From Sinorhizobium saheli (GTDB lineage Bacteria; Pseudomonadota; Alphaproteobacteria; Rhizobiales; Rhizobiaceae), in NCBI RefSeq assembly GCF_001651875.1, contig NZ_LNQB01000083.1, forward strand, positions 67,130-131,129: a stretch of 64,000 nucleotides of DNA, read 5' to 3'. How positions within the stretch are numbered: position 1 is the first letter of the stretch; each line of letters begins with the position of its first letter. This document shows positions 27,000 through 58,435 of the stretch, piece by piece. The notes under the pieces were generated by a model. It did not search any database and was not told where the DNA came from. It was given only the letters and a program-made list of their open reading frames with translations. A program made the position numbers and the translations under genes.

Positions 27000-28283
27000 T
27001 TGCTGCAGGTCTCCCTTCTGTTGCTCGTCGGGTCGATCTGGTTCCCTGGCGCCACGCGGATTGCCGGGACCGATGGCTCGCTTTCCTTCCTGATGGCGCT
27101 GTTCTGCGCGGTCATCAGCGTCGCGTCCTATGGTGAGGTTGCCAAGCGCGTCCATCGGTCCGAAGCGACGCTCGCGGTGGCTCTGCTGACGACCGCCGGA
27201 TTGATCATCATTCTCTCGCTGCTGTCGATGCTTTACACGGGCAGCCCGATGAGGACCATGCGCGCAATTTTCGCGCAGATCTTCGGTTTCGCCACGATTC
27301 CGGCGTTTGCAGCCTTGTCGGCGCGGCCCAACGGCGCCGAAACGCTGGACAGGATCGTATCGGCGATGATCCTCATGAGCCTCGCAACGGCCGGTCTCGT
27401 CATCCTTGGGCTGGGCGGCGCCAAGTTCGCCGATCGGGCAGCCGGGTTTTTCAAGCATGCAAACCAGCTCGGAATCGCCATGTCGGCGGCCCTTCCGCTC
27501 GTCGCCGCCAGACTTGTCACGTCGCGCAAACACCGGCTTCTTCTCGCGGCCTGCCTTGTCGCCGTGCTTCTCGGACTGGTGAAATCCGGATCGAAGACAA
27601 ACTTCGTCGTTGGCGTCATAGGGCTTGGCATTTTCTTTGTCCTGTACGCCATTTACCTCATTCTCAGGAGACAAAGGCCGTTGGCGATCATCGCCGGCGC
27701 GATCACGGCTCCGTTGCTGCTACACGCGGCGTTGTTGGCACTGCAGGCGCTCAACCCGCGAGCCTACCGGATATTGACCACGCAACTGTCGGGCGGCGAG
27801 GCGGATTCCATGGTGGCGCGCGAGCGGCTGTGGTCGATCTCGATCGATCTCGGCCTCGCACACCCGTTTACCGGGGTGGGCGCCGGACAACCGATCGGCG
27901 ACATCGCCCCGCACAGCCACAACCTGTTCGTCGAATATTTCCGAACGCTCGGCGTCCCGGGTGTTGCGTTGATAACGGTCATGGTCCTGCTGGTCCTGAT
28001 CTGCCTCATCAACGCGGTCATGGCAGGGTTGATCGCGAAAGGCAGAACCACCGACGCCACCGACACGAACGTGATGGTGCTCGGGACATCGGTCTGCGTG
28101 TTGAACTATCTCGTCGCGAACCAGATGAGCGACTCTTTCGGTCCGTCGACCGCACCGTTCTTCTGGATCCCGCTGGCATTGCTGATCGCCTACCGCAACG
28201 TGCAACGATCACTTGTAGACAAAAGCATCGGGCGGGTGCCGGATCCCGTGATACCCGGCGCCTTTCACACATTGAGAACCTGA
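27000..28283 (+). CDS. Wzy/O-antigen ligase-like polysaccharide polymerase
   Basis: This 427-residue integral membrane protein has about 10-12 hydrophobic segments. A periplasmic loop contains ARERLWSISIDLGLAHPFTG and GAGQPIGDIAPHSHNLFVEY, the Wzy_C/O-antigen-ligase signature with the conserved histidine in SHN. It should join lipid-linked repeat units in the periplasm. The start is uncertain: the frame opens after a stop at 26961, contains no upstream ATG, and the first usable codon is TTG at 27000 without a clear ribosome site. It is the first gene of the plus-strand arm and partners the Wzx and Wzc-like proteins of the opposite arm. Confidence 0.82.
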   Translation: MLQVSLLLLVGSIWFPGATRIAGTDGSLSFLMALFCAVISVASYGEVAKRVHRSEATLAVALLTTAGLIIILSLLSMLYTGSPMRTMRAIFAQIFGFATIPAFAALSARPNGAETLDRIVSAMILMSLATAGLVILGLGGAKFADRAAGFFKHANQLGIAMSAALPLVAARLVTSRKHRLLLAACLVAVLLGLVKSGSKTNFVVGVIGLGIFFVLYAIYLILRRQRPLAIIAGAITAPLLLHAALLALQALNPRAYRILTTQLSGGEADSMVARERLWSISIDLGLAHPFTGVGAGQPIGDIAPHSHNLFVEYFRTLGVPGVALITVMVLLVLICLINAVMAGLIAKGRTTDATDTNVMVLGTSVCVLNYLVANQMSDSFGPSTAPFFWIPLALLIAYRNVQRSLVDKSIGRVPDPVIPGAFHTLRT

Positions 28284-28345: not shown

Positions 28346-29164
28346 ATGAACCCGCACGAGCCGCACGAGAGGGACACGCGCGATAGGCCAGGCGCGGCAG
28401 GTTCCCTGTTTCCCGAGCGCATCCGCTTCGTCGAGTTCTTCGGCCTTCCCGGCATCGGGAAGACCACCGCTTCCCGTCTGTTCGCCAACAGGTTGCGCCA
28501 GTTGGGGATGCCCGTGGACGAGGCAAGACAGGAAAGAAAAGGTTTGATCGTTCGACAGATGGACAGGATCGTCCTCGTTCTTCCCAAACTGCTCAACAGA
28601 GAGTTTCGTTCGCTGGCCGCGAGAATTGCGCGGTTCGTTGCGCAGGGCGGGCAGGAAACGCCGATCGATGTGCTGCGCGTAACGTGGAACCTGTGCACGG
28701 TTGCCGCTTATATCGAGGAGCAAAGATCAAGGGGCGGGCCCCTGATGGTCCTTGACCAGGGATTGCTGCAGGGCTTCTTTTCGGTCCTTTTGCAGCACAG
28801 GGATAGGGCCACATCGGAGCCGTGGCTCGATATCCTTTCTGCCTTCGGCGTCGAGGATTTCGTCTTCGTGGATCTGCGGGGCGGGATCGACGTCGCACAC
28901 GGCCGGCTCCGGGCCAGAGGCGATCGCGTCTCGCGGCTTCAACGAGCGGCCCCCGATCGCGATGTCGGTCTGCGGATCATGGCGGAGCGCGCTTACCAGA
29001 GGATCACCGCGGAAATTGCGCAGAGATCGGATGCGTCCGGTAACGCGCCACTCATCGTCTCGGTCGACATCGACTCCTCCATATCGCCGGAACAGGTCGC
29101 CGACCGCGCGCTTCAAGCCGTGTTCCACGCCTGCCGCGGCTGGCATTGGGCGCAGAATTCGTGA
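28346..29164 (+). CDS. P-loop kinase-like protein, thymidylate-kinase-related
   Basis: This 272-residue protein has a clear Walker A (FFGLPGIGKTTASRLFANRL) near residue 32, an LDQGLLQGFF segment where a kinase DRx-type motif would lie, and an ARGDRVSRL lid-like stretch. It resembles the P-loop kinases found in surface-glycan and Tat-peptide-type gene clusters rather than true thymidylate kinase. Its substrate is unknown. It lies in the same direction as the Wzy-like gene and is followed after five bases by the beta-helix gene. A second, longer relative is fused to a nucleotidyltransferase at 55992-57587. Confidence 0.7.
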   Translation: MNPHEPHERDTRDRPGAAGSLFPERIRFVEFFGLPGIGKTTASRLFANRLRQLGMPVDEARQERKGLIVRQMDRIVLVLPKLLNREFRSLAARIARFVAQGGQETPIDVLRVTWNLCTVAAYIEEQRSRGGPLMVLDQGLLQGFFSVLLQHRDRATSEPWLDILSAFGVEDFVFVDLRGGIDVAHGRLRARGDRVSRLQRAAPDRDVGLRIMAERAYQRITAEIAQRSDASGNAPLIVSVDIDSSISPEQVADRALQAVFHACRGWHWAQNS

Positions 29165-29169
29165 ACGCG

Positions 29170-30204
29170 ATGGGCGTGAAGATGGACAGACGGACATTCC
29201 TGCGCATCGCCGGCGCATGTCCTGCCCTTGCCTTGGCGCCGATCTCCGCTGAAAACCACAGGGAGCGGATGTTTGCCGTCGGCCAACTTTCGGAAGGCCC
29301 CGAGATCGTCCTGAGTGGCGAATACGGCTACGCACAGAAAAACATTCGCAACCTTCCGGTCAGGGCGATGATCGATGCGAGAAATGCGTCCTTCACGGTG
29401 GCGAACAGCAGGAATTCCGCTCCGAACGCGCTTATCGGCTGCGACATGGGTTGGCAGCCGATCAATCGATACCCTCTCGTCATTCGCAACTGCCCGGGTG
29501 TGCATTTCATCGGCGGAAGGTTCGATGGCCGGGTGCCGCTCACGACCGACTGGCGACACACCTATTGCAACAGTGCCGCCATGCTCGTCAGAGATGGAAC
29601 GAGCCATGCGACGATAGAGGGTGTGCGCGCGCGGCGCTGCTGGGACGGCGTACGGTTCATCGACCATGTGAACGACTTTCGCCTGAAGGGCTCCTGGCTC
29701 AGTGAAATCAGGGACGATGCGGTTGAAAACGACTATCTCGCGAGCGGCGTCGTGGAGGATTGCCTGTTCGACGGGTGCTTCTCCGGGATCAGCCTGGACC
29801 CCGGTTCTCGCGAAGGGGACGGCCGACAGGAAACCGTGACGATTGATCGATCGCTCATTCGCATGGGCGCCTATCTCGCCAAAGGCGAGGTCACCCATCA
29901 GGCTCCCGTCAAGGCCGCCGACGTGTCCCCCAGGCTGAAGATAACGGAAACCATTTTCGCTCTGACGGCTGCAAACATGCGGGGCTTTCGACGGCTCGAG
30001 CGGACCTGGGCACGGATGATCGAGAGCCGCGACAATGCTCTCTTGTGGCTGCCCGACGAACCGATCCCGGCCGAGTTGCCGCTACCGCGCGCAGGCTTCG
30101 CGTTGCACACCGGCGCCGACGCCCGCGAGTGTTGGGACAAGGCGCGCCGGCAGTGGATCACCTCTCATCCGGATGTGCCGCGATTCCCGGACGACGAGCC
30201 GTAA
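29170..30204 (+). CDS. Tat-exported right-handed beta-helix protein
   Basis: This 344-residue protein begins with a twin-arginine signal (MDRRTFLRIAGACPALALAP, counted from the second ATG at 29182). The body shows short repeated strands typical of parallel beta-helix proteins: CPGVHFIGGRFDGRVP, DGTSHATIEGVRARRCWDGV, DHVNDFRLKGSWLSEIRDDA, ASGVVEDCLFDGC. Such folds occur in pectate lyases, alginate epimerases and other polysaccharide-acting enzymes. No catalytic triad is obvious, so lyase, epimerase or binding roles remain open. The start could be 29161 (GTG), 29170 or 29182. Its place between the kinase and sulfate-activation genes suggests glycan modification outside the cytoplasm. Confidence 0.72.
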   Translation: MGVKMDRRTFLRIAGACPALALAPISAENHRERMFAVGQLSEGPEIVLSGEYGYAQKNIRNLPVRAMIDARNASFTVANSRNSAPNALIGCDMGWQPINRYPLVIRNCPGVHFIGGRFDGRVPLTTDWRHTYCNSAAMLVRDGTSHATIEGVRARRCWDGVRFIDHVNDFRLKGSWLSEIRDDAVENDYLASGVVEDCLFDGCFSGISLDPGSREGDGRQETVTIDRSLIRMGAYLAKGEVTHQAPVKAADVSPRLKITETIFALTAANMRGFRRLERTWARMIESRDNALLWLPDEPIPAELPLPRAGFALHTGADARECWDKARRQWITSHPDVPRFPDDEP

Positions 30205-30315: not shown

Positions 30316-32496
30316 ATGAAGGTCAAAGAAGTCGAGCTCTTGTGCACACTGGGCCCAGCGTCCCTCAACGACCGTGTGATCCATTGGCTGGAACGGGCCG
30401 GCACCTCGATACTGCGCCTCAATCTGTCGCACACGAAGGTGGAGGATCTGGAGCGGATCATCCATTTCATCCAGAAGCGCACGTCCCTGCCCCTTTGTCT
30501 CGACACGGAAGGTGCCCAGGTCCGCACGGGACCGCTGGCCGACGGCAGGGTGAGCGTTCGGGAAAACCGGTTCCTGACCGCTCATGCGCGGCCGGTGGCG
30601 GGCGACCAGTTCTCGATCAGCCTCTACCCCGCCTATATCGTCAACCAGCTGGAAGTCGGAGATTTCGTCAGCATCGATTTCAACTCGGTGCTGTCGCAGG
30701 TCGTGGAGAAGCGCAATGACGAAGTCGTCCTCAGGATCCTGAACGGCGGCGAGATCGGCCCGAACAAGGCGGTGACGGTCCAGCGGCCCATCGAGATGCC
30801 GCCGCTTACCGACAAGGACCGCGCGGCGATCGCCATCGGACGCCGGATGGGGATCCGCCACTTCGCGCTCTCCTTCGCCCACCGGGCATCGGATGTCGAT
30901 GCGATCCGTTCGCTTGCCGGTGGCGAGGCGATGATCATCTCGAAGATCGAATGCCTGACCGGCCTGCGCAACCTCGCAGCCATCGCCGAGAAATCGGACG
31001 CAATCCTGATCGACCGCGGCGACCTGTCCCGGGAGGTGCCGATCGAACAAATCCCCGCCATCCAGAAGATGATCATTCGCGGCGCAAAGGCCCACGGCGC
31101 CAAGGTCTATGTGGCGACGAACCTGCTCGAGTCGATGACGACCGCGCCGACGCCGACCCGGGCGGAGGTCAACGACATCTACAACACGCTGGCGGATGGC
31201 GCCGACGGGCTCGTCCTCGCCGCGGAGACGGCGATCGGCCAGTATCCGGTGAACTGCGCCAGGATGGTCATGAAGGTCGCCCAGCAATACCAGCGGAACC
31301 TGAATGCCGCCCCGCGCAGCATCCGCGTGCGCCCCTCCTCGCTGATGGCGGGCGTCGAGCCGCATGGCGGTCGTCTGGTCTGCCGCACGGCGGGTCATGC
31401 CGAGCATCTGGAAATCGCGGGCTTGCCGACGATCACGATCGGCGACGAGGAATTGACGGATGTCGAGCAGATCGCACGCGGCACGTTCTCGCCGCTCCGC
31501 GGCTTCATGGACAAGGCGTGTCTCGAGAGCGTCCTCGAGGACAACCAACTGCCCACCGGACTGGTCTGGACGATGCCTGTCGTACTGGCCGTGCCACTGG
31601 AGGCGGCATGCCGCTACTCGAAAGGCGATCGCGTCGTGCTCGCCACCGGATGCGGGTCGCCGCATTCCCTCCTCGAAATATCCGAAACCTACTATCTCGA
31701 TCCCGAGCTGCTCGCCCGCAAATGGTTCGGTACCGACTCCAGCGACCATCCGGGCGTTGCGCGCGTCATCGCGCGCGGCGGGCACTTTCTCGCCGGCGAG
31801 GTCACGCTCATTCAGCCGCTCCCCTTGCCGTACCGGCGCTACGATCTGACCCCGGCGCAGCTCAGAACCGTTTTCGCCCATAAGGGCTGGACCCGGGTCG
31901 TCGCCTTCCACAGCCGCAATCTCGTCCACCGCGGTCATGAGCGTATCCAGATCGAGGCCCTGGAGCGCACCTTCGCCGATGGCCTGCTGATCAATCCCAT
32001 CGTAGGACACGGCAGGCGCGGAGATTTCCTCCCGCACCTGATCCTCGACGGCTATCAGGCCATGCTGGACTACGGGGTCTACCCGGCGGGCAAGGTCGTG
32101 CTCGCAAGCTTCATCACGTACCCGCGCTTTGCCGGGCCGCGCGAGGCGGTCTTCACGGCCCTCTGCCGCAAGAACATGGGCTGCAGCCATTTCATCGTTG
32201 GACGCGACCACTCCGGCGTCGCCAGCTTCTACGGGCCCGACGGTGCCAAGGCGCTGTTCGAGGAGCTTGGGGATCTGGGCATCGAGCCTATCTTCTTTGA
32301 TGCCGTCGGCTACGACACCCAGTCCGAACGCTATGTCGATCTAAATGCCTGCGAGACCGCCAAGCCGATCAGCGGCACCGAAATCCGCCGCGCCCTGATG
32401 GCGGGAGAGGCGCTGCCGAACTGGATGATGCGCTCCGAAGTGCAGGACGTCGTGCGCGCCGAACTGATGATGAAGCATGCGCTGTTTCAGGAATAG
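30316..32496 (+). CDS. Fusion of pyruvate-kinase-like domain and ATP sulfurylase
   Basis: The 726-residue protein has two parts. Residues about 5-335 are a pyruvate kinase TIM barrel without the usual C-terminal regulatory domain: CTLGPAS, RLNLSH, SKIE with the catalytic lysine, RGDL, ATNLLESM, PTRAEV and ETAIGQYPV. One loop reads DTEGAQVRTG where pyruvate kinases have DTKGPEIRTG. Residues about 340-726 are a Sat/MET3-type ATP sulfurylase: the PUA-like start EPHGGRLVCR, GTFSPLRGFMD, active-site HSRNLVHRGHE (usual form QTRNPxHRAHE), GPREAVFTALCRKN, VGRDHSGVASFYG and SGTEIRR. It should make APS from ATP and sulfate; the kinase part could regenerate ATP from phosphoenolpyruvate. The APS kinase gene follows after 32 bases. 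Confidence 0.92.
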   Translation: MKVKEVELLCTLGPASLNDRVIHWLERAGTSILRLNLSHTKVEDLERIIHFIQKRTSLPLCLDTEGAQVRTGPLADGRVSVRENRFLTAHARPVAGDQFSISLYPAYIVNQLEVGDFVSIDFNSVLSQVVEKRNDEVVLRILNGGEIGPNKAVTVQRPIEMPPLTDKDRAAIAIGRRMGIRHFALSFAHRASDVDAIRSLAGGEAMIISKIECLTGLRNLAAIAEKSDAILIDRGDLSREVPIEQIPAIQKMIIRGAKAHGAKVYVATNLLESMTTAPTPTRAEVNDIYNTLADGADGLVLAAETAIGQYPVNCARMVMKVAQQYQRNLNAAPRSIRVRPSSLMAGVEPHGGRLVCRTAGHAEHLEIAGLPTITIGDEELTDVEQIARGTFSPLRGFMDKACLESVLEDNQLPTGLVWTMPVVLAVPLEAACRYSKGDRVVLATGCGSPHSLLEISETYYLDPELLARKWFGTDSSDHPGVARVIARGGHFLAGEVTLIQPLPLPYRRYDLTPAQLRTVFAHKGWTRVVAFHSRNLVHRGHERIQIEALERTFADGLLINPIVGHGRRGDFLPHLILDGYQAMLDYGVYPAGKVVLASFITYPRFAGPREAVFTALCRKNMGCSHFIVGRDHSGVASFYGPDGAKALFEELGDLGIEPIFFDAVGYDTQSERYVDLNACETAKPISGTEIRRALMAGEALPNWMMRSEVQDVVRAELMMKHALFQE

Positions 32497-32528: not shown

Positions 32529-33083
32529 ATGGAGTTGAAGCGCGAAATTCGGCGAGAGCCCGCCCGTCCGCAAGCCGGAACGGTGCTGTGGCTGCTCGGC
32601 CCCACTTCGGCCGGCAAGACGACGCTGGCGACGCGCGTCGTGGCGGATCTGCGAAAGAAAGCGATCCCCGCCATTCTCTTCGACGGCGACGAGGTCCGCG
32701 ATTTCTTCGGCGACGGGCTGGGGTTCGGCGCGGAAAGCCGACTGCGCGTCGTCTCGGTCCTAGTGCATCTGGCCAACAAGGCCGCCGAGGCCGGCCTCAA
32801 TGTCGTCGTCGCCGCGCTGACGGCCGGGCAGGATGCCCGTGCCCATGTCCGCGCAAACGTGAAGAACCTGACGATCGGCTACGTTTCCTGCTCCATCCAG
32901 GGCTGCGCGCAAAGAGATCCGAAGGGCCTCTACCAAAAGGCGATGCGCGGCGAGATCGACACTCTCATCGGATTTAACAGCGCCTATCAGCCGCCGGACG
33001 ATCCGGACCTTGTCCTCGATACCGAAGCGCATTCGCTGGACGCGCTCGCCGCGCGCATCGTGGCTTCCTATGCGCAAGACTGA
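32529..33083 (+). CDS. cysC: Adenylylsulfate (APS) kinase
   Basis: The 184-residue protein phosphorylates APS to PAPS, the sulfate donor for sulfotransferases. It has Walker A GPTSAGKTTLA near residue 24, FDGDEVRDFFG matching the family's LDGDxVR block, and the diagnostic RDPKGLYQKAMRGEI. It is somewhat divergent: the GFS-xx-DR-xEN region of classical CysC reads GFGAESRLRV, and the ISPYRADR segment reads ALTAGQDARAHV. It lies directly after the ATP sulfurylase fusion, giving a complete route from sulfate to PAPS, while a sulfotransferase gene lies in the opposite arm of the locus. No cysD/cysN or PAPS reductase is present, favouring sulfation over assimilation. Confidence 0.9.
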   Translation: MELKREIRREPARPQAGTVLWLLGPTSAGKTTLATRVVADLRKKAIPAILFDGDEVRDFFGDGLGFGAESRLRVVSVLVHLANKAAEAGLNVVVAALTAGQDARAHVRANVKNLTIGYVSCSIQGCAQRDPKGLYQKAMRGEIDTLIGFNSAYQPPDDPDLVLDTEAHSLDALAARIVASYAQD

Positions 33084-33148: not shown

Positions 33149-34405
33149 ATGACCGATACCGAACTCACGCGGTTCTTCCTCTCGCTGGTCCTGCTGCTCG
33201 TAGCGGCGCTCGGCGGCGGCCTCGTGTTCGAGAAACTGAAGATGCCGCGTGTGATCGGGGAGATCGCGGGCGGGATAGTGCTTGGTCCATCCGTGCTGGG
33301 GCTGATCGCGCCCGGGGCCCATCAATGGCTGTTTGCAGGGTTTCCGGCGCAGGGTGCCCTGCTTTCCGGCTTCTATTGGTTCGGCCTGGTGCTGTTGATG
33401 TTCACGGCCGGGTTCAAGATGCAGGCGGAAGGCGCGGGCGGATCGGCGCGTATCGTCCCGGCTTTGGTGGTCGGGGCGCTGATGATCCCCTTCGCGCTCG
33501 GCTATGCGAGCGCCCCGTTGTTTGAGGATACGCAGCGCGGCGATCCTTTCGCGTTCAAGCTGGTGATGGGCATTGCCATGGCGGTCACGTCCATCCCGGT
33601 CATCTCCCGGATCTTCCTCGATCTCGGGCTGATGGCGACGCCATTCGCACGCCACGTCATCGGCGCGGCCACGATTCAGGATCTCATCCTATGGACGATC
33701 CTGGCCGTTGCCACCGCAGTCCAGCATGGCGATGCGGCCGACGCCGCCGGCATCGCACGGGTGGTCGCCATCACCCTCGGCTTCGTCCTCGCCTCGCTGT
33801 ACTTCGCGCCCGCCGGCATGCGTCTCATGCGCCGATGGCTCTTCGGGAAGTTCAGCGAAGCGTCCCTGACCGGCTACAGCATGCTGCTCTGCCTTGTCTT
33901 CGTCGCCGCGGCAAGCCTCCTGAGCGTGAACATCGTCTTCGCCGCGCTCGTCGCGGGCCTGGTGATGGCGCGCCTGACCTCACGCCAGCTTGTCGCCGTC
34001 AAGCAACATATCGCCGACATGGCCATATGGTTCTTCGTGCCGATCTATTTCGCTGTCGTGGGACAGAAGCTCGATCTCGCGCAGCAGTTTGACGGCGGCC
34101 TGACGCTGCTCTTCATCGGCGCAAGCACGGCGATCAAACTCGCAAGCTGCACGCTTTCCGCCTGGAGCGCCAATGCTGGCTGGGCGAGAGCCTTCGACTA
34201 CGGCGTCGCCATGAACACGCGTGGGGGACCCGGGATCGTGCTCGCGAGCGTCGCGCACGCGGCCGGTATCATCGACGCGCGCATGTTCACGGCGCTCGTC
34301 CTCGCCTCCATCCTCACCTCGTTCGCCACGGGACTGTGGCTTCGCTGGCGGCTCGTGCGCAATCCGGCAGTCTTCGCCAATCTGGCGCGACTGCCTGCCG
34401 AGTGA
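33149..34405 (+). CDS. CPA2-family cation:proton antiporter
   Basis: This 418-residue membrane protein of the Kef/NapA-type monovalent cation-proton antiporter family has about 12-13 hydrophobic segments. The N-terminal motif KMPRVIGEIAGGIVLGPSVLG and a central AVTSIPVISRIFLDLGL are typical. A GVAMNTRGGPGIVLA segment falls where the C-terminal half of this family carries a conserved motif. There is no TrkA-N domain. It sits between the PAPS genes and the PqqD/HprK-like fusion; a role in ion balance linked to an acidic, sulfated glycan is possible but speculative. Confidence 0.88.
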   Translation: MTDTELTRFFLSLVLLLVAALGGGLVFEKLKMPRVIGEIAGGIVLGPSVLGLIAPGAHQWLFAGFPAQGALLSGFYWFGLVLLMFTAGFKMQAEGAGGSARIVPALVVGALMIPFALGYASAPLFEDTQRGDPFAFKLVMGIAMAVTSIPVISRIFLDLGLMATPFARHVIGAATIQDLILWTILAVATAVQHGDAADAAGIARVVAITLGFVLASLYFAPAGMRLMRRWLFGKFSEASLTGYSMLLCLVFVAAASLLSVNIVFAALVAGLVMARLTSRQLVAVKQHIADMAIWFFVPIYFAVVGQKLDLAQQFDGGLTLLFIGASTAIKLASCTLSAWSANAGWARAFDYGVAMNTRGGPGIVLASVAHAAGIIDARMFTALVLASILTSFATGLWLRWRLVRNPAVFANLARLPAE

Positions 34406-44806: not shown

Positions 44807-46309
44807 CTATCCCGGGCGACTGCGCTGCAGAAAGGCCGGTGTCATTGCCGCCAGCATCCGCAGCACCGACCGGCCTTCCCGTCCGAGAAACAGCGACGGC
44901 AGGAGCCAGCAAAGCACCAGCCCGGCGGTCGCTCCTACCAATGCCACCTCGATGAGCAGGGTGAAGGGACCCACCTCCGCCCGGCGCAGCTGCTCCGTCA
45001 TCGCCCAGACCGGGGTCGCGACCGCGACCGCGAGGGCGAGCCCCGGCAGGTGCGCCACGGCGAACTCGGTCCAGGACATTCCGGTGACACGCAGGCTGAG
45101 CTGCGCCATCAGGAAGAAGTTGAGCGCGACGGCGGCGACGACGCCGAGCGACATCCCCGCCACCCCCCAACGCTGCCCGGTTGTGGCCCCGACCGCGACG
45201 GCGACGGCGAAGATCGCCTGTCGCCAGGCGCGGGCATAGACGGCGCCGGTTGCCCGCACCAGGGAGTCGCTGAGCTTGTAGCTCGTGCGAAACAACATGC
45301 CCGAGGCGAGGATCTGCAGCGGGATGACGACGCCTTCCCATGCCGGGCCGAGCATCACGCGCACGAGCTCCGGCGCCACGATGACCACGATCGCGCTCGT
45401 CGGCAGGGCGAACAGCGCGCAAGCCGCAATCGCGCTGCGGTAGGCGCGGGCGAGCCGGGCGGGCTCCTGCTGGATGAGCGCCATGGTCGGAAACAGCACG
45501 CGGTCGAGAATCTGGCCGACGAGCATCGCCGGTGCCGTCATGAGCTGCGAGGCAAGCGAGTACGCGCCGAGCGTATCGGCGCCCAGCCAGCGGCCCGCGA
45601 CAAGCCTGTCGATTTGCGTGGCGAGATAGTTGAATATCCTCGCAAGCGTGAACCCGCCGCCGAAATAGAGCAATTCGCCGATCGCGGGGCGTTCGAGCAT
45701 CGGCCGCTTCGCATGCGGCTGGCCGAGCACCAATACGACCATACGCACGAGGTTCTGGATAACCAGAGCGCCGATAAGCGCCCAGATGCCGAAGCCGAGC
45801 CAAGCCAGCACGGGAGCGGCGACGACATAGCCGATGGCAAAGGCGGCCGCATCGACGGCCGCGAGCCAGCGGAACCGCAACGCGCGCTGGGCGCTAGCCT
45901 GCGCGACCATCGCCACCCCTTGGCAAAGGAACACGACGCAGGAGGCCCGCACCACAGGCGTAAGACCGGGAAGGCGCAGCAAATCCGCAATTACCGGCGC
46001 CACCGTCCAGACGAGCGCGGCGACGGTGAGGCTGAGGACGAGCGACAGGGTGAACCCGACCCGGAGATGGCGCTCCTCGAGTTCGTGCCGCTGCACGATC
46101 GCCGGGGCGACGCCGAGGCCCTCGAAGATTGAGGAGAATTTGATGACGACGAGCGCGGCGGCGTAAAGGCCGAATTCATTGGGCGACAGGAGCCGCGCCA
46201 GGACGAGCAGCGCGACGAGCTCCGCCACGGCAAGGGCACCCATGGACAAGCCTGTCCAGAATATGCCCACGACACTCCGCTTCGCCAGTCCTTGCCGGAT
46301 GTTGCTCAC
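44807..46309 (-). CDS. Wzx-type polysaccharide flippase
   Basis: The 500-residue membrane protein has about 12-14 hydrophobic segments and belongs to the MOP/PST flippase superfamily (ExoT/WzxC-like). It includes LLVLARLLSPNEFGLYAAALVV near the N-terminus, NYLATQIDRLVAGRWLG and GPAWEGVVIPLQILASG. It should move lipid-linked repeat units across the inner membrane for the Wzy-like polymerase. The GTG start at 46309 has GGGGAG six bases upstream. It lies between the sulfotransferase gene and the secreted-protein genes on the same strand. Confidence 0.92.
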   Translation of the reverse strand: MSNIRQGLAKRSVVGIFWTGLSMGALAVAELVALLVLARLLSPNEFGLYAAALVVIKFSSIFEGLGVAPAIVQRHELEERHLRVGFTLSLVLSLTVAALVWTVAPVIADLLRLPGLTPVVRASCVVFLCQGVAMVAQASAQRALRFRWLAAVDAAAFAIGYVVAAPVLAWLGFGIWALIGALVIQNLVRMVVLVLGQPHAKRPMLERPAIGELLYFGGGFTLARIFNYLATQIDRLVAGRWLGADTLGAYSLASQLMTAPAMLVGQILDRVLFPTMALIQQEPARLARAYRSAIAACALFALPTSAIVVIVAPELVRVMLGPAWEGVVIPLQILASGMLFRTSYKLSDSLVRATGAVYARAWRQAIFAVAVAVGATTGQRWGVAGMSLGVVAAVALNFFLMAQLSLRVTGMSWTEFAVAHLPGLALAVAVATPVWAMTEQLRRAEVGPFTLLIEVALVGATAGLVLCWLLPSLFLGREGRSVLRMLAAMTPAFLQRSRPG

Positions 46310-46393: not shown

Positions 46394-47326
46394 CTACAGC
46401 GATCTTTGCGCATCCGACGGAATGCGCGGCGCCGCCGAAACTCCGGCTAATCGAAGGGGCTCCGGGATTTCGTAGCCGTAAAACCCCATCTCCTCCTCGA
46501 TCTCCGGCAGGATCGCCCGCAGTTCCTCCCGGTCGAGGCGCAGCCATTTCTCCTGCCGGGTCGGATCGACCATCTCCTTCGCCGCGCGGACGATGTCGTC
46601 GCTGCAGGCCAGTCCGCAGTGCTCATAGATGCGCCGCAGGGTGGCCTCGGTGTCCTGCATCAGATCCTCGTAGCGGAACCACAACACCCGCCCGTTCCCG
46701 AGCCTGGCGAGGTCTTCCCGGGCCTTGCGATTGCCTCGCGCCCACTGCCGCGCGATCACCTTCATGTTGTTGCGCTCGTTCAGGTCGTGATCGATCCCCC
46801 GATATCGCGGCCCATAGCTCGGGGTGTATTTTCGCCTCAGCAACTTCTTCACGATCATTTGCTTCACGAAGCCGCCGACGTAGTAATGCAATTGCGTGAT
46901 CGGTGTGACGGCGAGCGTTCTGCGCAAACCCTTTATCGTTTTTGTTCTCTGCCACTTCAATTCCATCGAACTGATGCACGAGAACGGATTCCGAGTTATG
47001 TAAAGATATGTCGCTTCCGGGAAGATCTTATGGACGTAGGGCACGCGCAAGACGTTTGACGGCGTGTTTTCCATGATCTGCCGGTTGCCGGACCGCACCT
47101 GGAATTCGAGGAATCGACCGCGGATGTAGCGGATCACCTTTTCCGTGGCATCGCTCTCGGAAAACTCATCGTGACGCCGCCCCGGATCCGCATAGAGCCA
47201 GAGCGTCCTCGGCTCGTACCAGGTCACGACGTCCGGGTGCAGCCCGATCAGATTCTGCGCGATCGTCGTGCCGGAGCGATAGTTGCCAATCAGGAAAATC
47301 GGAGGCCTCAAATTCGTTGCCAGCAT
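46394..47326 (-). CDS. PAPS-dependent sulfotransferase
   Basis: This 310-residue cytoplasmic protein should transfer sulfate from PAPS to a sugar, probably a lipid-linked repeat unit. It has the 5'-phosphosulfate loop IGNYRSGTT at residues 14-21 and the 3'-phosphate motif YITRNPFSCISS near 115, followed by RYEDLMQD. These are the features of the sulfotransferase family related to Nod-factor and LPS sulfotransferases. The ATG at 47326 was preferred over a TTG ten codons upstream because AAGGGGG precedes it. The PAPS genes are 14 kb away in the opposite arm, and no other sulfotransferase is visible in the window. Confidence 0.9.
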   Translation of the reverse strand: MLATNLRPPIFLIGNYRSGTTIAQNLIGLHPDVVTWYEPRTLWLYADPGRRHDEFSESDATEKVIRYIRGRFLEFQVRSGNRQIMENTPSNVLRVPYVHKIFPEATYLYITRNPFSCISSMELKWQRTKTIKGLRRTLAVTPITQLHYYVGGFVKQMIVKKLLRRKYTPSYGPRYRGIDHDLNERNNMKVIARQWARGNRKAREDLARLGNGRVLWFRYEDLMQDTEATLRRIYEHCGLACSDDIVRAAKEMVDPTRQEKWLRLDREELRAILPEIEEEMGFYGYEIPEPLRLAGVSAAPRIPSDAQRSL

Positions 47327-47365
47327 GGGCAAAATCCCCCTTCGATGAAATACCAACTTCTGCGT

Positions 47366-51703: not shown

Positions 51704-53104
51704 TCAGAGGCCGTTGACGCCCGCCTCATGCCCGGACCGATCGGCCTTGCCGGAACCGGCATCGGTTCCGGAGGCTCCCGGAGCGTAAAAGCCCTTGTTT
51801 GCGACGACCGAGACCTCGATCACGTCGCCGGCCTTCACTTCGGTGTTTTCGTCCGCCAGGATGTCCTGGCCCGTCTTCTGGCCGCGTCTGAAGATTGCGA
51901 TCTTGACTGAGCCCTGCAGGTCCTCGAGCGTCCTGTGCTCGCCATATTCGAAGACGAACAGCAGCTTGTCGGTGATGTACCTCAACTGACTCGCAAGTTT
52001 TGCGAGCGCCACCTGGGTATCCTGGATATTGGCGATCAGTTCGGACTCGTGGGTCTGCCGTTTTCTCCGCAGCTCGCTCTCCAGATTGAGCATTTCCTGC
52101 TCGACGCGCGTCTGCTGCAGCTCGGCCTGGGCGAGGTCCACCCGGTAGTTGTTATGCGCCCGTTCCAGCGCCAGGACGTTGGAATTGGTCATGAGACCTT
52201 TTTGACGGAGAGTGCGGATGGAATTCAGCTCCTCAAGCTGGTTCTTGACAGCCTTTTCCCGCTCCTCCCTCGCCTCGGCGACCATGTCCGCTTCCTTCTT
52301 CAATCGAGACAGCGAGGCCTCGATGAATGAAACCTCGTCCTGGAAGGCGGAGAGCCGCGCCCTCAGTTGCGCCTGTTCCGAGGCGACGATGTCCGCGATC
52401 ACCAACTCGCCGAGTTCGACCGGCGGATCCGCCGGGACGGAGAAGGACTTCTCCTGCCGGCTCTCGGCTCGAAGCCGGGCCAGCCGAACCTTCAGACGGT
52501 ACTCTTCAATGGTGAGGTTTGCGCGTTCACTGCGCAGATCGGCGATTTTGAAGGCGGGTACGGATTCGCCGGCTGTCGTCGGACGGAAGCCGCCTGCCAG
52601 GGCAAGGGCATGGCGAACGGTGATGCCCGGCTGAAACGGGTAGGACCCGGGATGCGCGACCGCCCCGGCTATGAAGAATGGCCGGTACTGGCCGATCTCA
52701 ACCTTGACAAAGGGCTCGAGGATCAGCTTCCGCTCCTTGAAAGCGCGCTGAATGTCCTTGGAAAGCGCGACTGGGGTGAGCCCGCGCGCGGGAACGTCTC
52801 CGAGCAGCGGAAGCGATATCGCTCCCCTGTCATCGATGACGACCTCCAGAGGATAGGCCGCTTCGCCGAAGACGGTCACGCGAACCATGTCGCCCGTGTC
52901 GAGCACGTACCCGTCTGCGCGAGAGGCGTCCGCACCAAGCAGCGCGACGATGAAGACGAGTCCCCGAAGCACCGCATGCAGGCGATTGACTGCGCTCCAG
53001 ATGCCGCGCAGTCGCGCCACCGCTCTACCTGTTTGTTGTTGCCGCAGTTCTGCGACGTCGGGCGATTCCGCCCGACTGCAAAATGCTTTAGCGAACCAGT
53101 TCAT
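51704..53104 (-). CDS. ExoF-like polysaccharide export protein with coiled coil
   Basis: The 466-residue protein has the polysaccharide-export (Wza-type) domain after an internal signal-like stretch (LRGLVFIVALLGADASRADG, then YVLDTGDMVRVTVFGE). A SLBB-like segment follows (GQYRPFFIAGAVAHPGSYPF), then a long coiled coil (about 230-390) and a final block GDVIEVSVVANKGFY, as in ExoF of succinoglycan systems. It should form or feed the export channel with the Wzc/ExoP-like protein. The ATG at 53104 has AGAGGAAG upstream. About 24 residues before the signal stretch (KAFCSRAESPDVAELRQQQT and following) are encoded by a dispersed palindromic repeat, so the real start may be downstream or the leader may have been lengthened by insertion. 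Confidence 0.88.
   Translation of the reverse strand: MNWFAKAFCSRAESPDVAELRQQQTGRAVARLRGIWSAVNRLHAVLRGLVFIVALLGADASRADGYVLDTGDMVRVTVFGEAAYPLEVVIDDRGAISLPLLGDVPARGLTPVALSKDIQRAFKERKLILEPFVKVEIGQYRPFFIAGAVAHPGSYPFQPGITVRHALALAGGFRPTTAGESVPAFKIADLRSERANLTIEEYRLKVRLARLRAESRQEKSFSVPADPPVELGELVIADIVASEQAQLRARLSAFQDEVSFIEASLSRLKKEADMVAEAREEREKAVKNQLEELNSIRTLRQKGLMTNSNVLALERAHNNYRVDLAQAELQQTRVEQEMLNLESELRRKRQTHESELIANIQDTQVALAKLASQLRYITDKLLFVFEYGEHRTLEDLQGSVKIAIFRRGQKTGQDILADENTEVKAGDVIEVSVVANKGFYAPGASGTDAGSGKADRSGHEAGVNGL
53020..53091 (+). repeat. Dispersed palindromic repeat, partial copy 3, inside a gene
   Basis: CACCGCTCTACCTGTTTGTT, TGCGACGTCGGGCGATTCC and CCCGACTGCAAAATGCTTTA match the right-hand part of the repeats at 7142-7244 and 37461-37565 (there GTGATTCCACC with GACTGCAA). 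The dyad GTCGGGCGATTCCGCCCGAC is intact. This copy is in frame within the 5' end of the ExoF-like gene. Confidence 0.75.
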
Positions 53105-53183
53105 AGCGGTCTTCCTCTGGGTTTCAGAGCTGCTCTGACGGCGGGGGCCTTCACGGGCGCCGGTGTCGACCGAACGGGGCACG

Positions 53184-54596
53184 TCAGAACGCATTGTCGT
53201 GCAGGAGGACCCGCAAGGTCCTGAAGATGATCGTCACGTCCAGCCACAACGACCATGTCCGGATGTATTCCAGATCGGCCGCGACCCGGTTCTCGATCTC
53301 GCTTCTCTTCTCGGTCGGGCCGCGATAGCCGCGGATCTGGGCGAGCCCCGTCAGGCCTGGCTTCATCGAGTGCCGTTGCCAGTATGCCGGAACGACCTCC
53401 CAATACAGCGCGCCTTCGGCCGATGCGCCGAGCGCGTGCGGGCGTGGTCCAACGAGACTCATTTCGTCGCGCACCACGTTCCAAAGCTGCGGCAATTCGT
53501 CGAGGCTGGTGTGGCGCAGGAAGTGTCCGAGCCGCGTGATGCGCGGGTCGTCCCGTTCGGTGAGGCGCGTGCCGGCCGCATCCGCGAGATCGGCCCGCAT
53601 CGTCCTGAATTTGATGCAGTCGAAATATCTGTTGTTCGCCCCGATGCGCCTCTGCACGAAGAAGACGGGCCCGGGTGAATCGAGGCGAATGAGGATGGCC
53701 AGGATGCCGACAAGCGGCAGGACCACGGGCGCCGACACAAGCACCAGCATCAGATCGAACGCACGCTTGAGGGCGCGCTTGCGCAAGGTGAGCGGTTCGG
53801 CGGAGACCACCAATGTCGGCGTTGAGTCGAGATAGCGCAGCGACCGCGGATGCAGATCGGCGAGGCCGGGCTCGAGCAATTCGATCTCGAACCCGATCTC
53901 GATCAGGAGCCGCGCCCATTGCCGGCGTTCCTCGACATCCAGGAACGACAGGACGATTCGATCCGAACCGGCCACGGCCTCGGAGAGTTCGTTCAGGAAA
54001 TTCGGATCGCTCTCGACCGGCTGCCAATTGCACGCCCGCACGTTGAAATCTGCGGCGACCCGCCGATCGCGATTCAAGCGGACACTCTCGTCGCCCAACA
54101 ACACGATTCTCGGCTTCGTCTTCCCGTCCTTGCGCAACATCCCTGCTGCAACGCCCCAGCGCAGCAGTACGAGTCCGGCCGCGGCGAGGGCCGAGAAGAA
54201 CAGCGTATCCTCGCGCCATACGCTGGCTGTCACGTTGAAGGCGAATGCGGCAAAGAGCGCGAGGCCGACGGCCGCGGCAAGGGACATGAGTGCAGTGCGA
54301 AGCGACAGCGAGACGGACCGCAAGGCCCCCAATCGGTAAGCCCCGAGCCGCCAGGCAGCAAGGAGATAGGCCGGCAAGACGACATGGGGCAGATTGGCGT
54401 CATCGATGTCGATCGCCCCTGCATGATAAAGTTCCGTGACGGTGGCCGCGGCAAGGATCATGCACAGGTCGCCCACCATAACCGATCCACGGAAGAGGCA
54501 CCTGATGACATTGCGATTTGCGGCACGCCCGATGCCGAGCAGGCTCGCGTTCCGCGCAGCCCGCGCAGCTCCAATCGGCAATTGCGTATCACTCAT
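53184..54596 (-). CDS. Initiating sugar-phosphate transferase (WbaP/WcaJ/ExoY type)
   Basis: This 470-residue membrane enzyme transfers a sugar-1-phosphate (glucose or galactose type) to undecaprenyl phosphate to start repeat-unit synthesis. The N-terminal half has about four membrane helices and a nucleotide-binding-like fold (PRIVLLGDESVRLNRDRR). The C-terminal bacterial sugar transferase domain has KRAFDLMLVLVSAPVVLPLV, SPGPVFFVQRRIG, IKFRTMRAD, LRHTSLDELPQLWNV and DEMSLVGPRPHA followed by KPGLTGLAQIRGYRGPTE. It belongs to the long form with an N-terminal membrane domain rather than short ExoY. It is on the same strand as the ExoF-like gene, 79 bases apart. Confidence 0.94.
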   Translation of the reverse strand: MSDTQLPIGAARAARNASLLGIGRAANRNVIRCLFRGSVMVGDLCMILAAATVTELYHAGAIDIDDANLPHVVLPAYLLAAWRLGAYRLGALRSVSLSLRTALMSLAAAVGLALFAAFAFNVTASVWREDTLFFSALAAAGLVLLRWGVAAGMLRKDGKTKPRIVLLGDESVRLNRDRRVAADFNVRACNWQPVESDPNFLNELSEAVAGSDRIVLSFLDVEERRQWARLLIEIGFEIELLEPGLADLHPRSLRYLDSTPTLVVSAEPLTLRKRALKRAFDLMLVLVSAPVVLPLVGILAILIRLDSPGPVFFVQRRIGANNRYFDCIKFRTMRADLADAAGTRLTERDDPRITRLGHFLRHTSLDELPQLWNVVRDEMSLVGPRPHALGASAEGALYWEVVPAYWQRHSMKPGLTGLAQIRGYRGPTEKRSEIENRVAADLEYIRTWSLWLDVTIIFRTLRVLLHDNAF

Positions 54597-54697
54597 GATA
54601 CACCTCAGAGCCAGTCGATAAATGCCTCGGTGAACTCATCGCGCAAAGGGCATGAAGGCCGATGGAAGCGGCCGGCCAATTCGCGAGCACGCGTCGT

Positions 54698-55882
54698 TCA
54701 TGCGTGTCTCGCGCTCACGGCCGTCACGCGAGGCTCGCGAGCGGATCGAAGGACGGAGTGGTAGACCGTCTCGACACTGTCGCACATGGCGTCGAGCCCC
54801 CAGGACGTGAGGTCGGTTCGTCTCGCACCTTCGGCCAGTCGGGCGCGATAGGCTCCGTTTTCAAGAAGATCGGCGACCGCTATGGCGGCGCCGCCCACGT
54901 CGCCTGCGGGCGTGACGATGCCGTTGACGCCGTGCCTGAGGACTTCCTCCAGCCCCGGCAATTGCGTGGCGATGCAGGGGCGACCGCCGGCAAGATACTG
55001 CATGATCACGCGAGGCAATCCTTCCCGCATCGACGTCAGGACGCATACGTCCGCCAGACTGATCAACCGCTCGGGTTCGCTGTGATAGCCGATCAGGTGA
55101 ATATTGGCTTGAACCGGGGAACGCGCGATCGCCGCCTCCACGGCGGGTCGGGCCGGCCCTTCTCCGGCCAGGAGCAGTTGCACGTCGGGGATGCGCTCGA
55201 CCACCGGCGCGAACGCCTCGATGAATTCGACATGGCGCTTCCTTGGCTCCAGTGCCGCCAGCATCAGCACCACAGGCGGCTTGGGCTGGTCGGGAGCGGT
55301 GCCGAGCAGCCTGTGCGCCTCGCTCGGCCAACGCGCCTCAGCGAAGCGCTTGAGCTCGAAGCCTGAGTGAACGACATGGTGCTGGTCGGGACTGCCGATA
55401 TGATTGGCGACGCAAATGTCGCGCATCGACTGACTGACATCGATGAAGGCGCGCGTGAACCTCGCGACCACGCGCTCCGCCGCCAGAAACGCCACCTTCC
55501 GCACATTGCCGACGTGCAGGAAAGGCAGGATGTGAACGCCGTGAATGATCCCCGGCACGTTGGCCTTTCTTGCAGCGAGGCGGCCGATGATGCCGGCCTT
55601 GCTTTGATGCGTGTGCACGATGTCCGGCTGCCACTTGAGCAGCAGCCGCTTCAAATCCCTCAGGGCCAGAGCGTCCTTGGAAGGCGATAGCGGATGAACG
55701 AGTGCTTCGAGAGTCGTCACCGGCAGGCTTTCGGCAACCGAGGCCCGCAATGCCGCATCATATTCATTGCCATGAACCAACAGCACCTCGTGTCCGTGTC
55801 TCACCTGGGAGAGACAGCACGCAAGCGTATTCTCTTCGGACCCTGCCCGAAGAAGTCGGGTTAGCACGTGAACGATCCTCAT
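54698..55882 (-). CDS. Family 4-type glycosyltransferase
   Basis: This 394-residue cytoplasmic GT-B enzyme starts MRIVHVLTRLLRAGSEENT and has the GT4 landmarks IVHTHQSKAGIIGRLAA, VVHSGFELKRF, MLAALEPRKRHVEFIEAF and a C-terminal donor site SMREGLPRVIMQYLAGGRPC with the paired-glutamate region (LTSMREG..E). It should add a sugar to the lipid-linked intermediate made by the neighbouring initiating transferase. It is the only recognisable glycosyltransferase beside that enzyme in the locus. The ATG at 55882 has GGAG about eight bases upstream; a longer in-frame start was rejected. Confidence 0.92.
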   Translation of the reverse strand: MRIVHVLTRLLRAGSEENTLACCLSQVRHGHEVLLVHGNEYDAALRASVAESLPVTTLEALVHPLSPSKDALALRDLKRLLLKWQPDIVHTHQSKAGIIGRLAARKANVPGIIHGVHILPFLHVGNVRKVAFLAAERVVARFTRAFIDVSQSMRDICVANHIGSPDQHHVVHSGFELKRFAEARWPSEAHRLLGTAPDQPKPPVVLMLAALEPRKRHVEFIEAFAPVVERIPDVQLLLAGEGPARPAVEAAIARSPVQANIHLIGYHSEPERLISLADVCVLTSMREGLPRVIMQYLAGGRPCIATQLPGLEEVLRHGVNGIVTPAGDVGGAAIAVADLLENGAYRARLAEGARRTDLTSWGLDAMCDSVETVYHSVLRSAREPRVTAVSARHA

Positions 55883-55991
55883 TTTTTGATCTCCGCGAGC
55901 CTGCGAACGTGCGTGACCGCCCACGCGAAAGGCCGCGTTCGGGCGTCTGGTGTGGCGTCTTGGTGAAAGGGGATGGAGGGGTCGCCGTCCG

Positions 55992-57587
55992 CTACAGGGA
56001 CAGCCAGATCTGCCTGAAGAGTTCCCGGTTTACCGCTTCCGCGCTGGCGCTCGCGTCAACGGCCCTGATGTCCTTGTCCCGGTTCCTGAGCTCGGTCATG
56101 AGCGCCATCCGCGCCTCAAAACCCTCTTTCCGGATTGCTCCCGGCTTGCGCTTCTCGGAGACGGAAAAATCGGAGACGAGGTGGAGGATCAGATGCGGTC
56201 TGCACGCCTCCATGTTGCGGTAAAGCCTTTGCTCGAGCCGGATCAAGGTCGCCAGACCGGGGAACGACGGGAGGTTCGACGGTATCATCGGCCCGTCCAG
56301 ATATCCCTGGCGAACCATTTGCGGCCACCGGTCTGAGATGACGATCAGGCCGCGCGTTGCCCAGCGGCAGGCCCGTTTCACGACGACGTATCGCTCGACC
56401 GCAATGAGGACGCCCCACAATGCGAGCCCGAGCGCCAGCACTTTCCGCTTGGCCCCGCCTCGGGGAGTGGATTCCTCGCCGCCGCGCGCGATGACTGCCT
56501 TGAACTCGCGCCTGCGGGGAAAGACCAGTTGCTGCAGGCCTTTGCGGAACCACCATCCGCTCCCCTCACCGGTTCCGACATAGGCCCGCGCACAGCCGAA
56601 CTTCCATCGAAATCTCCGTGTCAGGAGATCGACCTGGGTGCTCTTTCCCAGTCCATCCGGGGCGACGAGCGCCACGACGAGCCCGCCCGATGAAGGCCGT
56701 CTCTTTGGCGGGACGGCGCCGGGCATCAGGCGACCAAGCACCCTCAGCGCCAGGTAGGAAGTCTTGCGGACCAGATGAACCGCGGCGTCCGCCATGCCGC
56801 TGACGGTCGAGAAGCCGGCCCGCCGACGGATCGCGCGCCGGAGCCCGGCGAGATCTCCACCATGCACGAGCAGGCCGCGACCGCTCGGCCGCACTCTGCA
56901 ACTGACGGCATCGCGCCCAAGTTTGAATTCGACGCGGTGGGGAGCGTTCCCGCCTGATGCCGACTCAAGGCGGGACAGTTGCTCTTTCCAGTTGCCGCCG
57001 ATGGTCACCCATTGTTGCCAGGGCAATCTCCAAAGGCGAAACGCGAAGCGGGCAAGGGAAAGGCGGATCTCATCCTCCACGGAGACGAGGGGGACGGACA
57101 CCCCGTCGGACGAAGTTCTCTCCCATCGCGCTATTGCCGGATAATCCAGGGCCAGATAGCGCTTGCGAAACTCCCAGCCGACACGAATGCCGACGTGCAG
57201 GTCGAGGTGGAGATAGGCGCCTCGCGAAAAATCGGGGACGAACCAGTCCTCTCTGCCGGCGCAGACATTGTCGTAGCAGGAAAGGCTCACGCCCCGCACG
57301 CCGTTCAGCTCAGCCATTATCGAACAGAACAGCTGGTAGTCCTGCTTATCGACGAGCAGGTCGATGTCGTCGCGGCCGGCAAGCGCTGCAGGCAGGCTCG
57401 CGAGATCCTGGATGATCCCGTAGCGCACGCCGGCGACATCCAGGGCGCCGAAGAGGACGGCTGCAACCGGCAGAGCGGCTGCCCGCTCTCCCATGCTTAA
57501 AGGGGCGCCTGTATCCATCCGAGAAGGCGCGGTGTCGTCGAGGGTGGCCGACTTCAAGTGCATCGTCGCCTCACCGAGTACCGTCAT
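55992..57587 (-). CDS. Fusion of nucleotidyltransferase-like and thymidylate-kinase-like domains
   Basis: The 531-residue protein has an N-terminal nucleotidyltransferase-like part with GRDDIDLLVDKQDYQLF (acidic D-x-D site near residue 75) and YLHLDLHVGIRVGWEF. A C-terminal thymidylate-kinase-like P-loop domain from about residue 305 follows, with ALVAPDGLGKSTQVDLLTRR and a DRx motif in LIVISDRWPQMVRQGYLDG. A GFEARMALMTEL stretch falls near the end. Proteins of this type occur in surface-glycan loci, but their acceptor is not known. It is paralogous in its second half to the plus-strand kinase at 28346-29164. Another ATG at 57563 has a better ribosome site (GAGG), so the start may be eight residues later. 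Confidence 0.78.
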   Translation of the reverse strand: MTVLGEATMHLKSATLDDTAPSRMDTGAPLSMGERAAALPVAAVLFGALDVAGVRYGIIQDLASLPAALAGRDDIDLLVDKQDYQLFCSIMAELNGVRGVSLSCYDNVCAGREDWFVPDFSRGAYLHLDLHVGIRVGWEFRKRYLALDYPAIARWERTSSDGVSVPLVSVEDEIRLSLARFAFRLWRLPWQQWVTIGGNWKEQLSRLESASGGNAPHRVEFKLGRDAVSCRVRPSGRGLLVHGGDLAGLRRAIRRRAGFSTVSGMADAAVHLVRKTSYLALRVLGRLMPGAVPPKRRPSSGGLVVALVAPDGLGKSTQVDLLTRRFRWKFGCARAYVGTGEGSGWWFRKGLQQLVFPRRREFKAVIARGGEESTPRGGAKRKVLALGLALWGVLIAVERYVVVKRACRWATRGLIVISDRWPQMVRQGYLDGPMIPSNLPSFPGLATLIRLEQRLYRNMEACRPHLILHLVSDFSVSEKRKPGAIRKEGFEARMALMTELRNRDKDIRAVDASASAEAVNRELFRQIWLSL

Positions 57588-57725
57588 TTCTCGCCTGCAA
57601 GCTCATATCCCGGACCATTTTTTTGCAAGCTACCGCACCGAGGGTGAGTCGTATCACTCATCACCTGCGCCTTAACCATAAATATCTGCAAAAACGCAAC
57701 AAAGAAATATAACTCTAGAACAATC

Positions 57726-58292: not shown

Positions 58293-58435
58293 TACCCCCA
58301 AATTTACGTGGGGTCGCATCGCGTATATCTTCTAGTTCTTTCGCAGACACGACCAATAATTACAGGAATAAAATGAATATGTATTTACATGTTTACTTTT
58401 GTTACAAAGACACTAAACAACTAAAACTTTGACAC

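Follow-up and report, generated by a model that had tools for sequence, protein, structure and literature searches.

A 64,000-nucleotide stretch of DNA from Sinorhizobium saheli (contig NZ_LNQB01000083.1; hereafter the window) encodes, in a single uninterrupted frame at 30316-32496 on the forward strand, a 726-residue protein in which a pyruvate-kinase-like domain is fused to an adenosine triphosphate (ATP) sulfurylase. We propose that this bifunctional protein is probably a module that makes 3'-phosphoadenosine 5'-phosphosulfate (PAPS) for sulfated surface polysaccharide and is fuelled by phosphoenolpyruvate (PEP), with the kinase half recycling to ATP the adenosine diphosphate (ADP) released by adenosine 5'-phosphosulfate (APS) kinase. 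The proposal is based on the domains of the protein, its conserved active sites, purifying selection among rhizobial copies, the gene neighbourhoods and single cases in which further pathway enzymes are fused to the same kinase.

The frame opens with an ATG at position 30316, closely preceded by AGGAG. Its product runs from a pyruvate kinase barrel through a short linker to a complete ATP sulfurylase. The kinase part (residues 1-336; 30316..31323, forward strand as is the whole frame) is matched by PF00224 PK at residues 4-313 (231.4 bits against a cut-off of 30), the linker spans residues 337-345 (31324..31350), and the sulfurylase (31351..32493) consists of a PUA-like domain (PF14306 PUA_2, residues 348-500, 129.9 bits against 27) and a catalytic domain (PF01747 ATP-sulfurylase, residues 508-714, 217.7 bits against 24.3). 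These are the only Pfam matches in the protein, and none to the pyruvate kinase C-terminal domain was found. An earlier note on this DNA had described just such a chain, a pyruvate kinase that lacks its C-terminal domain followed by a Sat-type ATP sulfurylase, and its description is borne out, down to the kinase motifs that it named: CTLGPAS (residues 10-16), DTEG in place of DTKG (63-66), SKIE (209-212), RGDL (234-237), PTRAEV (280-285) and ETA (304-306). A structure prediction built from 42 fusions has a mean predicted local distance difference test score (pLDDT) of 89.3 and a predicted template modelling (TM) score of 0.67, with a weak linker at residues 337-345 (pLDDT below 50). Each half has solved structural relatives, among them the ATP sulfurylase 8a8d (E 6e-38, TM-score 0.94 by target length) and the pyruvate kinase 4yng (E 1e-32); only the barrel part of the pyruvate kinase matches counts, because these extend past the barrel at high root-mean-square deviation. 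Estimated among rhizobial copies only, against five relatives, the ratio of nonsynonymous to synonymous substitution rates is low in both halves (0.055-0.128 for the kinase and 0.109-0.135 for the sulfurylase), indicating purifying selection on both, and the frame is therefore not a product of chance.

How widespread is this fusion? Using strict limits on the expect value, a survey of the genus recovers it as the same full-length frame in 3 of 33 genomes, S. saheli's own included. Draws at wider ranks, likewise under strict limits, give 1 of 397 genomes for the order (the own genome), 3 of 385 for the class (own included, next to a lone kinase in G532 and a lone sulfurylase in G614), 2 of 299 for the phylum (own included; in G1206 the two are separate adjacent genes) and 1 of 246 for Planctomycetota (the centre genome itself, while seven others are matched by the sulfurylase only). 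Two plasmid records titled complete sequences carry the full-length fusion at 83% identity, and relatives in other phyla share 38-55% identity. A pattern scan of one genome per species over 84,980 species yielded 91 relatives, of which 80 were kept; together with the window and the two plasmid records these make up the 83 loci examined here, many of them from metagenome-assembled genomes (MAGs) and single-cell genomes. The fusion is present at 66 of the 83 loci, a count in which near-copies such as two Mesorhizobium amorphae strains or the identical kinases of L042 and L059 are unweighted. The other 17 have the kinase only, including three cut by a contig end (L090, L094, L103), a fragment near a contig start (L097) and one kinase fused to APS kinase (L101). 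Fusions occur in Ensifer, Mesorhizobium, Pseudaminobacter, Nitratireductor, Methyloversatilis, Thauera and Rhodospirillales MAGs, and further in Planctomycetota, Omnitrophota, KSB1, Chloroflexota, Actinomycetota (Salsipaludibacter), Bdellovibrionota, Elusimicrobiota and Bacteroidota. The partner that the earlier note called unusual is thus rare, yet it is no single oddity: the fusion is very widely scattered across bacterial phyla, as a family with its own sequence signature. This rare, scattered distribution suggests horizontal transfer.

What could a pyruvate kinase contribute to sulfate activation? ATP sulfurylase converts sulfate and ATP to APS and pyrophosphate and makes no ADP, APS kinase converts APS and ATP to PAPS and ADP, and pyruvate kinase converts ADP and PEP to ATP and pyruvate. 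PAPS synthesis is costly, as its first step is strongly unfavourable and its second is choked by the product ADP. Because the sulfurylase releases pyrophosphate and not ADP, the kinase cannot serve the sulfurylase alone, and any coupling must therefore pass through APS kinase. PEP-driven regeneration of ATP, suggested previously for this protein, holds up as its likely purpose, but not in the form of a direct coupling to the sulfurylase, since the ADP comes from the neighbouring APS kinase (32529-33083). In the scheme that we favour, the sulfurylase half would convert sulfate and ATP to APS and pyrophosphate, the neighbouring APS kinase would spend a second ATP to convert APS to PAPS with release of ADP, and the kinase half would use PEP to turn this ADP back into ATP on the spot. 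Removing ADP would free APS kinase from an enzyme-ADP-APS dead end, ATP would be refilled for both the sulfurylase and the APS kinase step, and APS would be kept low enough for the unfavourable first step to proceed; the PAPS would then be used by sulfotransferases that decorate surface polysaccharide. We infer that ADP is the acceptor nucleotide, that the benefit lies in ADP removal and local ATP supply, and that channelling takes part. A laboratory mixture performs the same reactions in the same order, its enzymes being separate and combined by hand: recombinant PAPSS1 gave practically no PAPS unless a PEP/pyruvate kinase system was present, which the authors attribute to APS kinase being trapped with APS and ADP in a dead-end complex (PMC9885120). 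The APS kinase dead end is also described in PMC3734648.

The genes around the fusion are in keeping with such a pathway. In the window, an APS kinase-like gene starts 33 nucleotides past the fusion on the same strand (32529..33083; Pfam 116.5 against 21.1 bits), and a P-loop, DGDEVR and RDPKGLY, which we take to be APS kinase motifs, can be read directly in its product. As raw counts, an APS kinase gene lies within 300 nucleotides on the same strand at 31 of 66 fusion loci, a sulfotransferase-like gene at 21 and either of them at 50; the corresponding numbers for the 17 kinase-only loci are 4, 6 and 10, with L091 and L101 entering the tallies through their own fused domains. Among non-rhizobial fusion loci (L089 also excluded), either gene is found within 1 kb in 38 of 52 and neither in 14. 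The sulfotransferase-like calls come from an in-house profile, grown in up to four rounds from ten neighbours, which also caught some long open reading frames (ORFs) and of whose members those at L091 and L102 were checked against Pfam. Two architectures, each a single case, join the kinase physically to other steps of the pathway: a kinase-APS kinase fusion in Omnitrophota (L101) and a sulfotransferase-kinase-sulfurylase fusion in a KSB1 genome (L091). At L110, kinase and sulfurylase are two adjacent genes. The stretch examined holds no APS kinase gene at 33 of the 66 fusion loci; 25 of these 33 genomes were searched, and 24 have one elsewhere. Overall, an APS kinase match is present in 45 of 46 searched genomes, two SAR11 matches being weak (G852, G853), which disfavours a PEP-dependent replacement of APS kinase.

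The genome of S. saheli itself also encodes an ordinary pyruvate kinase (an open frame of 502 residues). The fusion kinase is therefore not the housekeeping one, and the idea that it substitutes for a missing housekeeping enzyme is rejected for this genome, in which both are present. More than one pyruvate kinase match was found in 20 of 28 searched genomes and a single match in eight, each of which may be incomplete: five of the six SAR11 single-cell genomes, G1206, G841 and G846. In the own genome, PF01747 matches nothing but the fusion; this genome further holds four PF13469 sulfotransferase ORFs, the window's included and all on one contig, and, for another route of sulfate activation, two CysD proteins and a CysNC-like protein. 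Because of these CysD and CysNC-like proteins, ordinary sulfate assimilation is presumably independent of the fusion. Some 41-60 kb past the right end of the window, the same contig carries a second sulfation region (L120) with two sulfotransferases and a CysNC-like protein, with CysD just beyond, such that two different PAPS routes lie on one contig.

The kinase half belongs to a subfamily of its own, marked by (T/S)EGAQ, DRGDLSR, VATN and LAAET; the letters E65, A67 and Q68 partly reflect selection through the search pattern CLDTEGAQ. Seven loci that came from another pattern, without exact CLDTEGAQ, read SEGAQ in six cases and TEGAQ in L052, and two loci found without patterns (L025, L110) carry SEGAQ. 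A quick tree sets 60 fusion kinases, together with 16 further kinases (lone or split, besides one truncated at a contig end and one fused to APS kinase), apart from nine ordinary pyruvate kinases with 100% support in the Shimodaira-Hasegawa-like approximate likelihood ratio test (SH-aLRT); close relatives (L029, L033, L034, L035, L086, L089) and kinase-only fragments (L094, L097, L103) had been left out before tree building. We checked 13 catalytic positions (R34, N36, S38, D63, T64, R70, K151, K210, E212, G235, D236, T268 and E304), whose roles in binding PEP, ADP and Mg and in phosphate transfer we assume to be those of pyruvate kinase. Sixty of the 66 fusions agree at all 13; five others have T64S and one has D236E, so that Lys210, Glu212, Thr268 and Arg34 are kept in all 66 and Asp236 in 65. 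Among 60 fusions, median identity is higher for the kinase half (55%) than for the sulfurylase (45%), and distances in the two halves correlate (r = 0.74, uncorrected for shared descent).

The fusion sulfurylases, together with the split L110, likewise form one group against nine other sulfurylases (99% SH-aLRT). In the window protein, the RN, HxxH, GRDH and ISGT active-site motifs are all present, reading HSRN, HRGH, GRDH and ISGTEIR. With ISGT outside the count, RN, HxxH and RDH are kept in 52 of 66 fusions, six differ by GRNH only, and eight are broken. Where all four ordinary sulfurylases compared have the Gln of QxRN, the window protein and 59 of the 65 other fusions have His. Judged from these sequences, both halves are likely to be catalytically active.

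Several observations weigh against a PEP-fuelled PAPS module. All three enzymes score below their NCBIfam equivalog cut-offs: the kinase half reaches 267.8 bits against 306.4 for TIGR01064, for which reason we file it as a pyruvate-kinase-like subfamily and not as the equivalog, the sulfurylase half 298.4 against 322.95 for TIGR00339 (sopT), and the neighbouring APS kinase-like protein 128.8 against 138.7 for apsK. The substitutions that run through the whole kinase clade (in rabbit numbering K114E, P116A and E117Q, and SGET to AAET) adjoin the nucleotide and cation site, and ADP may hence not be the acceptor. The sulfurylase site is broken in 8 of the 66 fusions (L056, L062, L069, L071, L074, L075, L083, L088), which means that the two halves do not work as a pair in every fusion. 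Sixteen of 66 fusion loci have no APS kinase and no sulfotransferase-like gene on the same strand within 300 nucleotides, and no APS kinase was found in a genome search of the fusion-bearing MAG G841. A housekeeping pyruvate kinase could supply ATP anyway. Finally, the label 'fusion' requires seven changes on the kinase tree, of which well-supported branches enforce at least four, and the fusion has thus been gained or lost more than once.

Could the kinase act in some other way? In the boldest version, which we regard as doubtful, the DTEGAQ kinase would represent a new functional class, a phosphotransferase that draws on PEP, serves sulfate activation specifically and works within a PAPS-making complex, where ADP bound to APS kinase, or another nucleotide of the pathway, e.g., APS, would receive the phosphate, such that sulfation is powered by PEP and not by the ATP pool of the cell; in SAR11 it would work with a minimal nucleotidylyltransferase of 117-123 residues that replaces ATP sulfurylase. 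In SAR11 single-cell loci, a lone DTEGAQ kinase does stand beside APS kinase and a nucleotidylyltransferase-like ORF of this size (L102:9636-10004 and L105:9642-9992, forward strand; L108:11476-11841, reverse strand), with PF01467 matches and the motifs GRFQPFHxGH and ISATxIR; that of L105 additionally has a sub-cut-off ATP-sulfurylase match. Neither PF01747 nor CysD was found in these possibly incomplete genomes. The model of the small protein is poor (pLDDT 62.9); among solved structures it matches phosphopantetheine adenylyltransferases best, with E values of 0.04 or higher. This protein may be a minimal enzyme for APS formation.

A further reading, in which the kinase half passes the PEP phosphate to some pathway acceptor other than ADP (APS, 3'-phosphoadenosine 5'-phosphate or another nucleotide), we consider unlikely. 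It would account for the clade-wide changes at rabbit 114, 116, 117 and SGET, for the retention of the kinase where the sulfurylase is broken, and for the 33 loci that have no APS kinase gene in the stretch examined. However, APS kinase is encoded elsewhere in nearly all searched genomes of those loci (24 of 25), and in L101 this very kinase is fused to APS kinase. The residue at rabbit 117, Gln in the fusion kinase clade with Thr at 113 and 120, is not decisive either. This position is Glu in K+-dependent and Lys in K+-independent pyruvate kinases (PMC8835810, PMC4374775). In a crenarchaeal branch it is occupied by Ser, Gln, Arg, Asn, Gly or Val, and those enzymes of the branch that have Ser or Arg were measured as pyruvate kinases that need no monovalent cation (PMC4374775). 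Unusual residues at 117 are thus compatible with pyruvate kinase activity, and Gln does not by itself mean its loss.

Alternatively, the kinase half could sense PEP, and perhaps a nucleotide too, and gate the sulfurylase by carbon status with little or no turnover. The missing allosteric C-terminal domain, the substitutions around the nucleotide and cation site, and the presence of an ordinary pyruvate kinase in the own genome would all fit. We nevertheless think a sensor rather improbable, as it need not retain the full set of residues kept in the fusions (Lys210, Glu212, Thr268 and Arg34 in 66/66, Asp236 in 65/66), and as the kinase also stands beside or fused to APS kinase where no PF01747 sulfurylase was found (L101 and the SAR11 loci, in genomes that are possibly incomplete). 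Still less probable is a catalytically dead module with a structural role, as a scaffold for the sulfurylase or its partners. The inactive binding module considered in the earlier note draws, by sequence argument alone, on the change from DTKG to DTEG and on the lost C-terminal domain; it is hard to reconcile with a kinase that is the better conserved half and whose site outlasts that of the sulfurylase, the 13 positions being unchanged in the eight fusions with a broken sulfurylase except for T64S (L071) and D236E (L075). That the fusion is an assembly or sequencing artefact joining two genes, an outcome named beforehand and looked for, has practically no probability left and is ruled out, because the same full-length frame recurs in genus relatives, in the two plasmid records titled complete and in other phyla, in 66 loci from nearly as many different assemblies.

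The PAPS-making module that we favour would be embedded, in S. saheli, in a polysaccharide region that includes a sulfotransferase. In the window and 11 further loci, a syntenic rhizobial cassette comprises an O-antigen ligase or Wzy-like membrane protein, the leftmost gene compared (27000..28283, forward strand), a protein with a P-loop (GLPGIGKTT, by eye; 28346..29164, forward) and one that is putatively right-handed beta-helix-like by eye (29146..30204, forward), both without a Pfam match, the fusion, APS kinase, a CPA2-type cation/H+ antiporter (33149..34405, forward; below the NCBIfam subfamily cut-off), an HprK-like and a nucleotidyltransferase-like protein. At 21 of 66 loci, 13 rhizobial and 8 of the 52 others, an antiporter is encoded on the strand of the fusion no more than 1 kb away; non-rhizobial loci with a CPA2-type antiporter near the fusion include Planctomycetota, Chloroflexota and Thauera. 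Further along the window, on the strand opposite to the fusion, are a Wzx-like polysaccharide flippase (44807..46309), a sulfotransferase (46397..47356; PF13469, Pfam match) that is likely a PAPS user, and a run of polysaccharide genes (51704..60538) for a Wza-like export protein, an initiating sugar transferase, a glycosyltransferase, a NusG-like regulator and a Wzz-like protein, within which the ORF 55992-57587 has no Pfam match.

The window has further features. Two paralogous short ORFs (36661-36948, 95 residues; 37110-37376, 88 residues), to both of which RRDFLAKAGRFA and LLLGTSLSSRAIAKS are common by eye, follow the PqqD/HprK-related and nucleotidyltransferase-like proteins, and their products are perhaps modified peptides. 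Two large repeat-rich proteins (37628-41698, read by eye; 41871-44570, with weak cadherin/immunoglobulin-like matches) are encoded near HlyD and ATP-binding cassette exporter genes and are perhaps type I secretion substrates. A eukaryotic-type (alpha) carbonic anhydrase is encoded at 5459-6208 (PF00194).

How does the fusion compare with known systems? The closest solved Sat-type ATP sulfurylase, 8a8d from Methanothermococcus thermolithotrophicus, shares both the PUA-like and the catalytic domain in full, at 37% identity over the structural match, and the HxxH, GRDH and ISGT motifs, whereas the fusion differs by its N-terminal kinase, its His for the Gln of QxRN and its score below sopT. The pyruvate kinase closest by sequence, 7oo1 from Pseudomonas aeruginosa, shares the A and B domains and the checked catalytic positions; the fusion lacks the C-terminal domain, carries DTEGAQ, DRGDLSR, VATN and LAAET, and falls in a clade separate from the nine ordinary enzymes compared. 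CysDN or NodPQ-type activation, also present in the own genome, likewise provides APS for PAPS, but with an unrelated protein and with energy coupling by the CysN GTPase. Bifunctional PAPS synthases of metazoa, fungi and bacteria, in which the sulfurylase is joined to APS kinase, likewise couple sulfate activation physically to the pulling second step; in contrast, the partner in our fusion would recycle ADP rather than make it, and APS kinase is a separate gene downstream. A precedent is given by the ATP sulfurylase-pyrophosphatase fusions of stramenopiles and haptophytes, where the sulfurylase also carries an enzyme that relieves the unfavourable reaction (PMC2275785, PMC3734648), although there pyrophosphate is removed, whereas here ADP would go and ATP return. 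The wording 'pyruvate kinase' is absent from the available text of PMC2275785, and the fusion is unreported in titles and abstracts among the matches listed from open-licence literature. The individual reactions are all known; judged from these listed matches, neither their union on one chain nor the conserved kinase subfamily seems to have been published before.

In conclusion, if the pyruvate kinase-ATP sulfurylase fusion acts as we propose, many phyla would carry on one polypeptide the solution that a laboratory PAPS mixture needed (PMC9885120), and it would offer a ready-made, self-fuelling enzyme for making sulfated polysaccharides. Its simple sequence signature would then point to bacteria, among them rhizobia, Planctomycetota and Omnitrophota, whose surface sugars are likely to be sulfated.

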